A program made the position numbers and the translations under genes. Below, one piece after another: positions 38,310-53,670 of a stretch of 64,000 nucleotides of DNA; within the stretch, counting starts at the first letter, position 1, and every line of letters begins with the position of its first letter. The notes below the pieces were generated by a model that was given only the letters and a program-made list of their open reading frames with translations, was not told the origin of the DNA and did no database searches. The DNA is from Actinospica robiniae DSM 44927 (lineage in GTDB: Bacteria; Actinomycetota; Actinomycetes; Streptomycetales; Catenulisporaceae). The stretch lies in the NCBI RefSeq assembly GCF_000504285.1, contig NZ_KI632511.1, positions 2,353,372 to 2,417,371 of the forward strand, read 5' to 3'.

Positions 38310-38406
38310 CGTGCATCACCAGGAGCTTTGCTCTGTTTCCGCATGATTTGTTGGCTTTCGCCACACCTCCGCTCTAGCCTCCCGTCCAACCGAAAGGAGC
38401 ACACCC

Positions 38407-40356
38407 ATGCTTGACAGCCTGGCCGGACCATCCTCGGCCGGAGCGACGACCTCGAGGCGACCGCAAGCCTTCCGGGCCGCGGCAGCCACGACGGCCGTCG
38501 CCGTCATCGCCTCGTTGGTCATGTTCAACGGCGCGCACAAGGCCTTCGCGGCCGACACCGCCACGATCAACGGCGCCACCACCTACCAGACCATCACCGG
38601 GTTCGGCGCGTCCGAGGCCTTCGGCGAAGCCCAGACCGTGATGAACGCCTCCAGCTCGGTGCAGCAGGCGGTGCTGGCAGACCTCTACAGCCCGACCACC
38701 GGCGCCGGCCTGAACATGCTGCGCAACGAGGTGAGCGCCGACTCGGGCGCCACCATCGAGCCCACCGCCCCCTCGAGCCCGACCGCGACCCCCGCCTACG
38801 CCTCGCTCGCCTCGATCGGCCAGGACGCCGGCCAGCTCTGGTTCGCCCAGCAGATCAAGGCGGACTACGGCGTGACCAACGTGTTCGCCGACGCGTGGAC
38901 CGCGCCGTCGTTCATGAAGACCAACAACTCCACCTCCGGCGGCGGGGCCGTCTGCGGCCTGACCGGCGCGACCTGCAGCAGCGGCGACTGGAGCCAGGCG
39001 TACGTCAACTACCTGGAGCAGTACGCGGCGGACTACTCGGCGGCCGGCATCCCGCTGACCTACATCGGGCCGGAGAACGAGGCCAACCTCTCCACCAGCT
39101 ACGACAGCATGCAGCTGAGCCCGGCGCAGACCGCGCAGCTGCTCGACAAGCTCGGCCCGACGATGGCGAACTCCGGCCTGTCCACCCAGGTCGAGTGCTG
39201 CGCCACCGAGGGCTGGGACTACGCCCAGAGCTACGCCGCCGCGATCGAGGCCGACTCGACCGCGAACCAGTACACGAAGGTGTTCACCAGCCACGGCTAC
39301 ACCCAGGCGCCCGCCTCGGCGCTGAGCGGCTGGAGCAAGCCGGCCTGGCAGACCGAGTGGTCGACCTTCGAGACCTGGGACCCGGCCTGGGACGACAACA
39401 CCGACGCCTCGGGCCTGACCTGGGCGCAGAACATCTACAAGGGCCTGACCTCGGCCAACCTCTCCGCGTTCCTGTACTGGTGGGGCAGCACGACCCCGTC
39501 CGAGAACGGCGACAACGAGGGCCTGCTGGAGATCAACGGCAGCACCGTCACCCCGGCCGGCCGGCTGTGGGCCTTCGCCAACTACAGCCGCTACATCAAG
39601 CCGGGCGCGGTGCGCATCGCCACCACGACCAGCAACAGCGCGCTGGACCTGAGCGCGTTCAAGAACCCTGACGGGACGATCACGGTGGTGGCGCTGAACA
39701 CCGGCACCAGCGCCGACTCGGTCAACTACTCGCTCAGCGGGACCGGCATCACCTCCGGCACCGCGGTCCCGGTGCTGACCAACGGCTCGAACAACGCGGC
39801 CACGCAGTCCTCGATCGCGGTCAGCGGCAGCGCCTTCAGCGCGAGCGTGCCGGCCCGGTCGCTGGAGACCTTCGTCATCAGCGGCGGCGGCACCTCCAGC
39901 AGCTCGCCGTCGGCGTCGGCTTCGGCTTCGGCGTCCGCCTCGCCCTCCGCGTCGGCCTCGGCTTCGGCCTCTCCGTCCGCGTCGGCTTCGGCTTCGGCTT
40001 CCGCTTCGGCCTCGCCGTCCGCCAGCGCGACCAGCGGCGCCTCCTGCACCGTGGCGTACTCCACCACCTCGCAGTGGGGCGGCGGCTTCACCGCGAACGT
40101 GGTCATCACCGACAACGGCACTTCCGCCATCAATGGCTGGACACTGAAGTACACGTTCGGAGGCGACCAGAAGGTCACCAACTCCTGGAACGCGACACAG
40201 ACGCAGTCCGGCGAGGCGGTGACGGCCACCAACATGAGCTACAACGCCGCCATCAGCCCAGGCGGCAATACCAGTTACGGCTTCCAAGGCACCTGGACCA
40301 ACAGTGACGCGGCGCCGACAGCGTTCACACTCAACGGCGTGACCTGCGCCGGCTGA
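38407..40356 (+). CDS. Secreted GH30 glycoside hydrolase with C-terminal CBM2
   Basis: A 649-residue extracellular enzyme. A signal peptide (1-48, ending KAFAAD) is followed by a GH30 (alpha/beta)8 catalytic domain with its attached beta-domain (about 50-490), a Ser/Ala/Pro linker (about 497-540) coded by 6-bp tandem repeats, and a CBM2 cellulose/xylan-binding module (about 542-649). Catalytic residues are Glu225 (acid/base, in GPENEANLS) and Glu317 (nucleophile, in WQTEWSTFE). GH30 bacterial members include glucuronoxylanases, beta-glucosidases and beta-1,6-galactanases/glucanases; the subfamily is not settled. GGAG lies 7-8 nt before the ATG. Confidence 0.92.
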   Translation: MLDSLAGPSSAGATTSRRPQAFRAAAATTAVAVIASLVMFNGAHKAFAADTATINGATTYQTITGFGASEAFGEAQTVMNASSSVQQAVLADLYSPTTGAGLNMLRNEVSADSGATIEPTAPSSPTATPAYASLASIGQDAGQLWFAQQIKADYGVTNVFADAWTAPSFMKTNNSTSGGGAVCGLTGATCSSGDWSQAYVNYLEQYAADYSAAGIPLTYIGPENEANLSTSYDSMQLSPAQTAQLLDKLGPTMANSGLSTQVECCATEGWDYAQSYAAAIEADSTANQYTKVFTSHGYTQAPASALSGWSKPAWQTEWSTFETWDPAWDDNTDASGLTWAQNIYKGLTSANLSAFLYWWGSTTPSENGDNEGLLEINGSTVTPAGRLWAFANYSRYIKPGAVRIATTTSNSALDLSAFKNPDGTITVVALNTGTSADSVNYSLSGTGITSGTAVPVLTNGSNNAATQSSIAVSGSAFSASVPARSLETFVISGGGTSSSSPSASASASASASPSASASASASPSASASASASASASPSASATSGASCTVAYSTTSQWGGGFTANVVITDNGTSAINGWTLKYTFGGDQKVTNSWNATQTQSGEAVTATNMSYNAAISPGGNTSYGFQGTWTNSDAAPTAFTLNGVTCAG

Positions 40357-50345: not shown

Positions 50346-51716
50346 TCAGCGCGACGGCGTGCTGCTCGGCGTCGCGGCAGCGGTGCCGGCGAAGGTGAAG
50401 GACACCAGGACGCCGCTGTCGTCGGTCTGCTCGGAGGATATCGGGTTGGCCAGCCCGTAGTGATCGCAGCCGAGGTTGACGAACGAGCCCTGCAGCCGGC
50501 CGGCCAGGAACGTCAGCAGGCTGTCGGCCCCCGGGTCGGGCGTGGGCGCGGCGGCGAAGCGGGCGTAGTCGAGTTTGAGCCGCGCGGTCTGGATCGTGTC
50601 CATGTCCCGGCAGTAGGCGACCGGGCGCTGTCCGGCCGGCAGGGCGCCCTGGTCGACTCCGGCCCGGTACAGGTTGGTCTTCTGGGTGCTCTGGCCGTTG
50701 TCGGTGACGGTCATCGGGTCGTTGAGCGGGACGAGCGCCGACGGCGCGGCCTGGTGCGCGGCGGCCTGGATCTCGTCGAGGGCGAGCGAGGTGGCCTTGC
50801 CGCCGGTGGCCAGATCCTTGGCCTGCCAAGGGCTGCAGCCGAGAGCGGGATCGACGAACTCGTCGAGCAGGGCGTTGTCGCTCGGGTTGGCGAGCACGGC
50901 CGCGCCCGCCATCCGGGAGGAGTTCGCGGGGGTGTCCTGGGCCGTGCGTCCGTCGGCCGTGGTCAGGTACTTGGTGGTGACGTTGTCGCTCTGGTCCTGG
51001 TCGACGATGGAGAAGTCGCGGGTGCTCGGGCACGGCTGGCCGTCGACGGCGGTGCCGAGCGCGGGAATGGCGAGCTTGTGCACCGCGATGCCGTGGTTGA
51101 CCGCGACGAAGAACTGCGCGGCGTCGCAGTACGCGTATTGGCTGAACGGCGAGTCGTTCAGGCCGTTGACACAGTGCGCGGACCGCAGGCCGTCGGGGAC
51201 GGCCGAGCGCAGGGTCAGGTTGTCCGCGTCGAAGCCGAACCAGATCCCGACGACGGCGCCGGACGGCAGCTTCGGCAGGACCGGGGCGACGGCCGCGCGG
51301 CTGCCCTGGTCGATGACCAAGGGGTCGTACACCGAGAGCGCGCCGGTGGCCGGGTCGTAGACGGTCGCCTGGACGAAGGCCGACTGATCGACGTCGGCCT
51401 CGTGGCACGGACCGTCGGCCGGGTTCGTCGCGGTCAGCCGGTAGGGCGTGGCCAGCCCGCGCGCGGTGAGCGGGTCGGCGGGGATGACGAGCGTGCAGTC
51501 CGCGTTCGGGTCGGCGGCGGCCGGGCTCGTCGGCGCGGCGGAGCTCTGCCGCGTCCCGGTGGGCCTGCGGTGGTCGGCGCCGAGCCCGGAGCCGTGCCCG
51601 GACGGCGCGGCGATGGCGACCGCGACCACTCCGCCCACCAGCAGCGGGACGGTGGCCGCGATCAGGCCTAGCCGGAACCGCCTTCGGCGCGGGCGCTGCG
51701 AGACATGCTGCGTCAT
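50346..51716 (-). CDS. Putative secreted or membrane-anchored protein, function unknown
   Basis: A 456-residue protein. An Arg-rich N-terminus (QRPRRRRFRLG) precedes one hydrophobic segment (residues about 15-36), then a Ser/Ala/Pro-rich spacer and a large extracytoplasmic region with six Cys residues (for example PCHEADVD, AYCDAAQ, LGCSPWQAKD). I recognise no domain. The ATG at 51716 has GGAG 6 nt upstream. A GAAACTTTC motif lies 76 bp upstream, shared with the divergent CBM2 gene. Confidence 0.7.
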   Translation of the reverse strand: MTQHVSQRPRRRRFRLGLIAATVPLLVGGVVAVAIAAPSGHGSGLGADHRRPTGTRQSSAAPTSPAAADPNADCTLVIPADPLTARGLATPYRLTATNPADGPCHEADVDQSAFVQATVYDPATGALSVYDPLVIDQGSRAAVAPVLPKLPSGAVVGIWFGFDADNLTLRSAVPDGLRSAHCVNGLNDSPFSQYAYCDAAQFFVAVNHGIAVHKLAIPALGTAVDGQPCPSTRDFSIVDQDQSDNVTTKYLTTADGRTAQDTPANSSRMAGAAVLANPSDNALLDEFVDPALGCSPWQAKDLATGGKATSLALDEIQAAAHQAAPSALVPLNDPMTVTDNGQSTQKTNLYRAGVDQGALPAGQRPVAYCRDMDTIQTARLKLDYARFAAAPTPDPGADSLLTFLAGRLQGSFVNLGCDHYGLANPISSEQTDDSGVLVSFTFAGTAAATPSSTPSR

Positions 51717-51791
51717 GGGCACTCCTCTGGCACCTGAGTGGGGACGGACCTCGGGTGCAGACATGCTCGCATCGCCCGAGGCCGTATGGCC

Positions 51792-51800
51792 GAAACTTTC
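51792..51800. promoter_or_regulatory. GAAACTTTC palindrome in the CBM2-gene divergent promoter
   Basis: GAAACTTTC (51792-51800), followed by AC, is the third copy of the 9-mer class seen upstream of GH30 and GH6. It is 142 bp before the CBM2 start and 75 bp before the divergent gene. Confidence 0.45.
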
Positions 51801-51942
51801 ACAAAATTTGATGAAGATAGTCAGGGGTCGCCTGATGTGACGGCCCTGATACAGGAGCCGCGCCTTGTCGAAAGAGATGCGCAAGCCTCACTGTGGGCGA
51901 TGGCTCATTGACCTCTTCACTCCCCCCTTTGGAGGGACGACG

Positions 51943-53670
51943 GTGACCCGACAGGATTCCGGCGCGGCCCGCGGATTCTTCACCCGCGGGCTGATCCTCG
52001 GCTCCGCCTTCAGCCTGCTCGCCGCCGGCGCCGCCGGGCTCGCCCTGGCCGCCCCGGCCAGCGCGGCCGGCGGGCTGAGCGTGAGCATCGCCGCCACCAG
52101 CACCTGGACCGGCGGCTTCACCGACACCGCGACCATCACCAACACCTCCGGCGCGACCGTCTCCGGCTGGAGCGTGCAGTTCGACCTGGCCGCCGGCATG
52201 AGCGTGACCGGGTTCTGGCGGGCGAGCGAGGCGGCCAGCGGAAATCAGTACACGTTCACCGCGCTGAGCTATGACATGACCTTGACAGCGGGCGCCAGCA
52301 CCACCTTCGGCTTTCAGGGCACTGATTCCGGTGGCTACACCGCGCCGACGAACGTCACGGTCACCTATCCGGGCAGTGTGAGTTCGCCGTCACCCTCAGC
52401 ATCCGCATCAGTGTCCGCTTCGGCCTCGCCTTCCGCTTCGGCTTCCGCATCAGCGTCTGCTTCCGCTTCGGCCGGCGCATCGCCGAGCGGTTCCGCGTCG
52501 TCTGCGTCCGCCGCGTTCACCCAGGCCGACATCGACGCCGCCGTGGCCGCGCCGCTGATCGCGTTCGCCGCGCCGACCTCGGGCACGCCGCGGCCCGGCA
52601 CCAGCCCGAGCGGCATCAAGGCGTCGAAGGCCCTTTACTACCTCGCCTTGGTCGACCTGCAAGACCCCGGCGCCAAGTCCACCAAGGGCACCACCGTCGA
52701 CAGCGCCCTGCTCAAGCAGGTGGCCAACCTCGTCGCCGGCGGCCACGAGCCGGACGCCGACGGCGGCCTCGAGGGCTGGGCCGCCGCGCCCGTCGCCCAG
52801 GCGCTGCTGCTGGTCAGGCACGGGCCGGTGTGGAGCGAGTTGAGCGCCACGCAGCAGAACGACGTCAGCCTCCTGATGGCCGCGATGGGCTACGGCGGGA
52901 ACTACGCCTACAACGACGCCAACGACTTCTCCTCGGGTATCTGCGGTTTCGGCGATTTCGCCAAGACCAACAACCCCAACTACGAGGACGGATACGTCGA
53001 CGTCGAGCTCGCCGCGATCGAGTATTTCGGCCCGACCACCTGGGACGGCATGCTGGCAGGCTTCGATGACGCCACCGAGGCCGCCGCTCTCGACGCGGCG
53101 GGACTGACGAACGCAGGAGGCTGCTTCACCACGGTCGGATCCGCGGCCGACGCGGCGATCCAGCCCGCGTGGTTGTGGAAAGGCCACACGGCGAGCGACG
53201 AGATGGGCATCTGGAACCAGCTGGCCGAGGACACCTTCGACCAGACCGTCACCAGCTCGGTCTCGGGTACCTCGAACGGCGCGTCCGTCACAGCGCACAT
53301 CGCGGACGGCAGCACGAGCCCGGAGCAGGGCCTGCTGGGCATGGGCCACGAGTTCGACACCACCGACTCCGGCGGCCTGCGCAGCTCGGCGCTGTACGTG
53401 TACGAGGGCTGGATGAACGTCACCGGAAGCCGGGTCGCCATGACCGCGACCGGCGGCTTCAACTGTGCGAACGCCGCCGGCGCGAGCCAGTACAAGGTGG
53501 GCAGCCTGGATCTGATCTACAAGCTGGACCACGGCTACATCAGCTACGCGCAGAGCCAGTCCGCCGTGCTGGTGGACGACACCGGCGACCCGAGCGACGG
53601 CCCGGTCTCCAAGGGCTGGATCTACGACTACGACGCCTACGACGCGAACGTGGTCGGCCAGGCCTGCTGA
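51943..53670 (+). CDS. Secreted protein: N-terminal CBM2, Ser/Ala linker, unrecognised large domain
   Basis: A 575-residue extracellular protein. The signal peptide (1-42, ending APASAA) is followed by a CBM2 (about 43-145; SVSIAATSTWTGGFTDTATI), a Ser/Ala linker (about 146-190) and a ~385-residue domain I cannot identify. The last part has Trp/Tyr/Asp-rich motifs (YGGNYAYNDANDFSSGICGF, GLLGMGHEFDTTDSGG, KLDHGYISYAQSQ) and several paired Cys, as in secreted carbohydrate-active enzymes. It lacks a recognised catalytic signature. GTG 51943 has GGAGG 8 nt upstream. Cellulose or xylan binding is likely. Confidence 0.8.
   Translation: MTRQDSGAARGFFTRGLILGSAFSLLAAGAAGLALAAPASAAGGLSVSIAATSTWTGGFTDTATITNTSGATVSGWSVQFDLAAGMSVTGFWRASEAASGNQYTFTALSYDMTLTAGASTTFGFQGTDSGGYTAPTNVTVTYPGSVSSPSPSASASVSASASPSASASASASASASAGASPSGSASSASAAFTQADIDAAVAAPLIAFAAPTSGTPRPGTSPSGIKASKALYYLALVDLQDPGAKSTKGTTVDSALLKQVANLVAGGHEPDADGGLEGWAAAPVAQALLLVRHGPVWSELSATQQNDVSLLMAAMGYGGNYAYNDANDFSSGICGFGDFAKTNNPNYEDGYVDVELAAIEYFGPTTWDGMLAGFDDATEAAALDAAGLTNAGGCFTTVGSAADAAIQPAWLWKGHTASDEMGIWNQLAEDTFDQTVTSSVSGTSNGASVTAHIADGSTSPEQGLLGMGHEFDTTDSGGLRSSALYVYEGWMNVTGSRVAMTATGGFNCANAAGASQYKVGSLDLIYKLDHGYISYAQSQSAVLVDDTGDPSDGPVSKGWIYDYDAYDANVVGQAC

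Follow-up and report, generated by a model that had tools for sequence, protein, structure and literature searches.

A candidate uronan-degrading enzyme of Actinospica robiniae with a predicted (alpha/alpha) toroid domain absent from Pfam and NCBIfam

Described toroid enzymes and the Actinospica protein

For polysaccharide lyases (PL) built on an (alpha/alpha) toroid, Tyr, His and Asn have been given as the catalytic set (PMC12088678; this and the other papers cited here are drawn on in excerpt). In PL8, PL12, PL15, PL17, PL21, PL23, PL35 and PL39 the toroid is followed by an antiparallel beta-sheet domain (PMC12088678, PMC12269599), and in PL35, where the toroid ends at residue 365, the catalytic His401 lies beyond it (PMC12088678). 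The PL5 and PL38 alginate lyases (PF05426; structures 7fhu, 9fi3 and 9fi5) are single-domain toroids in a size class of 307-380 residues, with Tyr298 and His243 as catalytic residues in PL38 (PMC13169297). A single toroid domain also makes up the glucuronate dehydratase formerly placed in glycoside hydrolase (GH) family GH154 (9o4u, 8oi4), for which Tyr229, Arg285 and Tyr289 have been proposed, Arg285 and Tyr289 being the key residues (PMC12269599). Here we analyzed a stretch of 64,000 nucleotides from Actinospica robiniae DSM 44927 (the window; contig NZ_KI632511.1, positions 2,353,372 to 2,417,371), in which the gene at 51943-53670 (+ strand, stop included) encodes a 575-residue protein with a CBM2 module and a C-terminal domain (52516-53667) that is predicted to be a toroid as well and is proposed to be catalytic. 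We consider it probable that this protein is a uronan-degrading enzyme, its chemistry left aside, of a family that is absent from Pfam and NCBIfam.

The domain resembles the PL5 and PL38 enzymes in its size class, in being a predicted single-domain toroid and in having a putatively important Tyr (Tyr298 in PL38, PMC13169297), and differs from them in lacking a Pfam match and an invariant His, and in having 138 residues with beta hairpins between Asn155 and Tyr294. The protein ends with the toroid, so that the beta-sheet domain of the PL8-type families and the part of PL35 that carries His401 have no counterpart in it. Its predicted single toroid domain recalls the glucuronate dehydratase, in which Arg and Tyr are spaced by four residues (PMC12269599) instead of the five found here; it is unlike that enzyme in sequence, the PDB searches having returned no match, and in being a predicted secreted protein with a CBM2. 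The arrangement also recalls the Cip1-type CBM2 proteins of actinomycetes, which combine a CBM2 with a lyase-like domain whose activity is uncertain (PMC3764139).

The domain family and its predicted fold

A sequence-only reading of this DNA had described a C-terminal domain of about 385 residues that matched no known family, and this was borne out for the 384 residues searched here. Against Pfam-A, scans with 10 and with 32 family members returned rows of single members only (best E 0.018) and no confident match, NCBIfam likewise gave single-member rows only (best E 0.02), and no match was found among the PDB sequences with either single sequences or profiles (best E 0.17). The only PDB profile rows at E up to 10, stretches of dehydroquinate synthase and ribosomal uS19, were dismissed as chance. 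Among the Pfam rows of the 32 members, PF05426 (PL5/PL38) was missing at E up to 1, as were PF07470 (GH88/GH105) and PF07221 (AGE/cellobiose 2-epimerase). As a sequence family it has no entry in Pfam, in NCBIfam or among the PDB sequences searched, whereas CAZy, dbCAN and UniProt lie outside this comparison. Its novelty was thus judged apart from those three resources, and it is conceivable, although rather improbable, that the domain already belongs to a recent CAZy family or a non-classified CAZy entry that has yet to reach Pfam or NCBIfam, which would be compatible with any functional reading. The missing matches in Pfam, NCBIfam and the PDB argue against this, as do searches of the open-licence PubMed Central literature, whose listings showed no description of the family.

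A scan of the named-species collection for the domain gave six loci. The domain was present in 7 of 119 genomes of the nearest relatives, the window's own counted, and in a single genome, again that of the window, out of 396 in the phylum sample. On the side of the Verrucomicrobiota it was found in 11 of 337 genomes of the phylum of the match, in 17 of 322 of its order, and in 1 of 197 of the class of another match, these three samples being overlapping. Viral contigs, plasmids and phages were searched for relatives of the domain and contained none. After second copies of the same locus had been dropped, the alignment held 32 distinct members with none excluded, nine of them actinobacterial and 23 verrucomicrobial, the latter from 21 genomes. 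Named strains with a member are Catenulispora rubra DSM 44948, Streptacidiphilus fuscans NEAU-YB345 and Actinospica durhamensis CSCA 57, the last being the nearest named relative with 88% identity within the domain, while the verrucomicrobial members are 21-30% identical to the window sequence. The tree shows three separate groups of 9, 17 and 6 members, which we regard as one family because profile comparison between the groups with hhalign gave 99.9-100%.

Sixteen residues are invariant in all 32 members (domain numbering): G83, G84, W106, D134, N153, N155, G159, P269, G272, E279, F280, R289, Y294, G329, D332 and G340. The polar ones among them include Asp134 (52915-52917), the two Asn of Asn153-Pro154-Asn155 (52972-52980) at the N-terminus of helix 154-171, Glu279 (53350-53352), the Arg and Tyr of Arg289-S-S-x-x-Tyr294 (53380-53397), which run into helix 292-311, and Asp332 in helix 323-339. 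The same helix carries Lys336, conserved in 31 of the 32 members and replaced by Arg in the remaining one (Asp332 to Lys336, 53509-53523), and Tyr341 is likewise conserved in 31. The invariant polar types are Asp, Asn, Glu, Arg, Tyr and Trp; neither His nor Cys is among them. The sequence-only reading had also pointed to Cys pairs, and the domain does contain four Cys, at positions 143, 203, 317 and 384, which occur in 9, 22, 3 and 3 of the 32 members, respectively. Because Cys317 and Cys384 are found together in the same three members (the window protein, L001 and L005), a disulfide between them is possible there; judged from the alignment, Cys is no family trait.

AlphaFold2, run on the 32-row alignment, gave a pLDDT of 89.3 and a pTM of 0.91 (85.7-89.3 over the five models). 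The model consists of alternating helices with beta hairpins ahead of helix 292-311 and a last helix at 368-378, and the predicted fold class, an (alpha/alpha) toroid, is solid. An earlier model from 10 mostly close sequences, with a pLDDT of 59, was left out of the structure searches. Foldseek returned no match for the confident model at E <= 0.001 in either PDB or BFVD. In a second structural pass, VIA-align was applied to Foldseek's 1000 best chains, of which 996 were aligned. The top seven rows were all polysaccharide lyases, with Z 12.0-11.0 and rmsd 4.3-5.3 Angstrom, values to be read with the caution that Z below about 13 in helical models may reflect a shared arrangement only. Highest were the PL15 enzyme 3afl (12.0), the chondroitinase 9o3q (12.0) and the PL35 enzyme 8khw (11.7), followed by PL38 9fi3 and 9fi5 (both 11.6), a second PL15 structure, 3a0o (11.1), and PL5 7fhu (11.0), the family numbers being taken from the record titles and from PMC12088678. 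The PL5 and PL38 rows (Z 11.0-11.6) had an rmsd of 4.7-5.3 over 244-252 residues and also fall below this caution level. The new class envisaged by the sequence-only reading can mean no more than a new sequence family, because the predicted fold is already known.

Lyase fusions, uronate genes and possible chemistry

CBM2 modules are carried by eight of the nine actinobacterial members, L005 having an F5/8-type domain in its place. In four of the nine (L002, L004, L131 and L132) the polypeptide also contains a PL14 domain (PF21294), which is separate from the toroid; the E values are 2e-28 for L002 and 5.5e-23 for L004, and the domains of L131 and L132 were recognised by their similarity to that of L002. 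An alginate lyase of known structure, 5gmt, is matched by the L002 PL14 part (E 2.7e-6). The window protein itself has no PL14 domain. Neither the PL14 fold nor the core of Cip1 is known to be a toroid. Immediately 3' of the PL14-CBM2-toroid gene of Streptacidiphilus (L002:7260-8798, + strand) lies a gene for a 513-residue, secreted-looking protein with no Pfam match.

The gene is present in 5 of 10 Catenulispora genomes (G006, G008, G009, G011 and G012), and in all five it stands in the same order: divergent Sugar_tr and IclR genes, the gene itself, a solute-binding protein, a permease, 5-dehydro-4-deoxyglucarate dehydratase (KdgD) and uronate dehydrogenase (Udh). The families were checked on single copies, with Sugar_tr, IclR and the solute-binding protein confirmed by Pfam in L003, whereas the permeases, of which a second was seen in two genomes, were assigned by reading alone. 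The G006 copy of Udh hits chains that were deposited under the name uronate dehydrogenase (6mfh, E 9.9e-62; 3rft, 4.6e-59; 3rfx, 8.3e-58), and also 3ay3, deposited as an NAD-dependent epimerase/dehydratase (1.2e-60). Its nearest NCBIfam model is the Azf glucose-6-phosphate dehydrogenase, an assignment that was rejected, the score being 175 against a cut-off of 400 bits and the uronate dehydrogenase structures matching over nearly the full length. KdgD of G006 passes PRK03620 (418 against a cut-off of 278 bits) and matches 4ur7 (E 7.2e-65), and falls short of the stricter TIGR03249 (304 versus 374 bits). In the less complete genomes G010 and G013, which lack the gene, IclR, KdgD and Udh are present, with no solute-binding match within the stretch read. 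The window genome has an IclR-Udh-KdgD cluster as well, about 5.1 Mb along the contig; its KdgD passes PRK03620 (399 bits) and its Udh shares 54% identity with the G006 enzyme.

In the Verrucomicrobiota, the surroundings of the gene were examined in 17 of the 21 genomes (sixteen stretches of 16.7-19.9 kb, and L006) by cross-comparison and Pfam scans of part of the neighbours. Three of the 17 have neighbours that count in favour of a uronan substrate. L065 has a chondroitinase-B-like protein, GH28, LacI, a sodium symporter and a 2-hydroxyacid dehydrogenase; apart from the symporter, each of them has a homologue in L050. In L006 the neighbours are LacI, a 2-hydroxyacid dehydrogenase and a sulfatase (SGSH C-terminal match). 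Other neighbours are an L-rhamnose mutarotase (L060), a polysaccharide deacetylase (L059), and a beta-helix protein with a GDSL esterase (L051). Two members carry BNR_2 sialidase-like domains; these were considered as a substrate clue and set aside, since they indicate no substrate. In L053, L055, L056 and L061 an NAD-epimerase-type protein stands beside a protein weakly like dihydrodipicolinate synthase (families checked on L061), a pair with a loose resemblance to Udh-KdgD of Catenulispora. In L057, L062, L063 and L064 the family gene has an asparaginase gene beside it (as checked on the L063 copy), a neighbour that does not fit a role in sugar use.

The predicted fold, the invariant polar residues, the PL14 fusions and the uronate operons support the extracellular polysaccharide-acting enzyme that had been suggested from the sequence, and a uronic-acid-containing polysaccharide would be the substrate class. 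Judged by its family, the CBM2 would anchor the protein, a presumed cell-wall-bound enzyme, on cellulose-like surfaces, and the flexible linker would carry the toroid domain, which would cut the polysaccharide. In Catenulispora, the products may then be imported by the ABC importer and processed by uronate dehydrogenase and 5-dehydro-4-deoxyglucarate dehydratase. In a beta-elimination, Tyr294 would serve as base and acid with Arg289 alongside, and Asn153 and Asn155 would hold and neutralise the uronate carboxylate. This chemistry was chosen because Arg289 and Tyr294 enter one helix and Asn153 and Asn155 open another, all four being invariant. The enzyme reading with beta-elimination included stands, as a whole, at close to an even chance. 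The preference for a lyase over a hydrolase is its most inferential part, and the equivalence of these residues to those of the lyases is putative.

A number of observations weigh against this lyase reading. Foldseek found no counterpart in the PDB at E <= 0.001, and the nearness to lyases is a lean only, because Z values of 11-12 fall below the caution level for helical models. The next VIA-align rows were cellobiose 2-epimerases (from Z 10.8), GH154 (10.1), glucuronate dehydratase and GH76 (both 9.7), where the 9.7-10.1 of the dehydratase and GH154 structures is again below that level. In hhalign the family showed no relation to PL5/PL38 (19 members; 1.1% and 1.8%), GH88/GH105 (20 members; 4.5%) or the epimerases (20 members; 0.1%), whereas its own three groups reached the 99.9-100% given above and GH88 against the epimerases 67%. 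No His is invariant, whereas the toroid lyases described in the excerpts cited use one. The operon does not depend on the gene, because G003, G005 and G007 (L162, L163 and L164) have the same operon without it, with 118-208 bases between IclR and the solute-binding protein gene; the uronate operon thus carries the gene as an optional extra at its front. These three genomes and the gene-bearing ones form a natural presence/absence pair. Both Streptacidiphilus copies lie away from Udh and KdgD within 13-kb stretches, and several verrucomicrobial neighbourhoods contain no recognised uronate gene, with asparaginase or UvrC instead. The window gene does not adjoin Udh or KdgD in the stretch read, so its link to uronate would come through family membership. 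A search of the window genome for GH88/GH105 found none, with three controls positive; the corresponding PL14 search was negative too, but so were its control genomes, and absence of PL14 is therefore not established.

Among the other explanations, a glycoside hydrolase of an unclassified toroid family is the most serious, although we hold it to be clearly less probable than a lyase. Its catalytic acid pair would be Asp134 and Glu279, and its products saturated glucuronate or galacturonate, or else uronate oligosaccharides. Three carboxylates (Asp134, Glu279 and Asp332) are indeed invariant, GH76 structures are among the structural neighbours, the window genome is without GH88/GH105, and no unsaturated-uronyl hydrolase was noticed in the gene list of the Catenulispora operon, though these genomes were not put through a family search for one. 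The operon contains uronate dehydrogenase, and the known substrates of this enzyme are saturated uronates, which favours a hydrolase. However, the top seven structural rows are lyases, PL14, the domain found fused to the toroid, is a family of lyases, and Arg289, Tyr294 and the two Asn equal the acids in invariance. Of the hydrolase, lyase or oxidase envisaged by the sequence-only reading, the first two stand, while nothing points to an oxidase, at which no test was aimed. A uronate dehydratase or another exo-acting modifier of uronan oligosaccharides (compare the former GH154), or an epimerase, instead of a depolymerase, is unlikely. In its favour, the domain falls into the same size class as two other single-domain toroids, the glucuronate dehydratase 9o4u (Z 9.7; 385 residues) and cellobiose 2-epimerase (Z 10.8), and Arg285/Tyr289 of the former recall Arg289/Tyr294 here (PMC12269599), but the CBM2 and the PL14 fusion suggest a polymer as substrate, and such dehydratases are reported to co-occur with GH88/GH105 (PMC12269599), not found in the window genome. 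Least probable, and very doubtful in our view, is a non-catalytic binding or structural domain. The family has no known activity, and alpha/alpha toroids exist outside enzymes, as in the complement proteins that also appear among the VIA-align rows (Z 8.5). Yet the member proteins are built like secreted carbohydrate-active enzymes, and across two phyla 11 polar positions keep their residue in 90% or more of the 32 members, 8 of them on one face of the model, as divided post hoc. Crowding on that face (13 of the 16 invariant residues, p 0.012; 19 of the 32 residues of the 90% set, p 0.21) was given no weight, because the face was chosen after the residues had been viewed.

Within the favoured lyase reading, one further variant seems improbable to us, namely a new exolytic lyase family, beside or fused with PL14, that yields the 4-deoxy-5-keto uronate monomer, which a Udh-like enzyme would oxidise to 5-dehydro-4-deoxyglucarate, the substrate of KdgD. 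If true, this would link uronan to central metabolism by a short oxidative route, bypassing both the usual reductase/KDG-kinase branch and an aldarate dehydratase. Such a route fits the operon, because Udh and KdgD are present and no aldarate dehydratase was noticed in the gene lists, to which no dedicated family search was applied. More generally, this appears to be an enzyme family missed by present domain libraries and amenable to testing, with its natural lyase fusions, an operon that hints at the class of substrate, and its set of invariant residues. Closing gaps of this kind makes for better annotation of the enzymes with which soil actinobacteria and Verrucomicrobiota degrade polysaccharides, a useful gain and not an upsetting one, the fold and the general kind of chemistry being already known.

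Gene layout and surroundings in the window

The open frame at 51943-53670, claimed from the sequence, is present and starts with GTG, 6 bases past the ribosome-binding-site-like GGAGGG (51931-51936, + strand). It has a counterpart in A. durhamensis, 83% identical over the best local alignment. The protein is presumably secreted, as a Sec-type signal peptide (51943-52065) with likely cleavage after ...APASA is predicted from the translation by eye. The CBM2 and linker that had been claimed were both recovered: the CBM2 module comprises residues 47-141 (52081-52365; PF00553, E 1.2e-21, 77.4 bits against a curated cut-off of 24), and the Ser/Ala/Pro-rich linker visible in the translation extends over 52381-52515. 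The closest solved carbohydrate-binding module is 1exg (E 7.3e-11), and a W, W and Y of the window protein align with the three W of its CBM2, Trp residues that bind cellulose.

The A. robiniae genome that carries the gene is a single 9.9-Mb contig. The neighbours of the gene encode a protein of 512 residues that has no match in Pfam, a glyoxalase-like protein and a metallo-beta-lactamase-fold protein. The first of these, divergent and upstream (50346-51884, - strand), has a homologue upstream of the A. durhamensis gene too (714 bits, L001 1004-2590). A second open frame in the window, at 38347-40353 (+ strand), contains a CBM2-like stretch that matches the CBM2 described here with E 3.7e-13.
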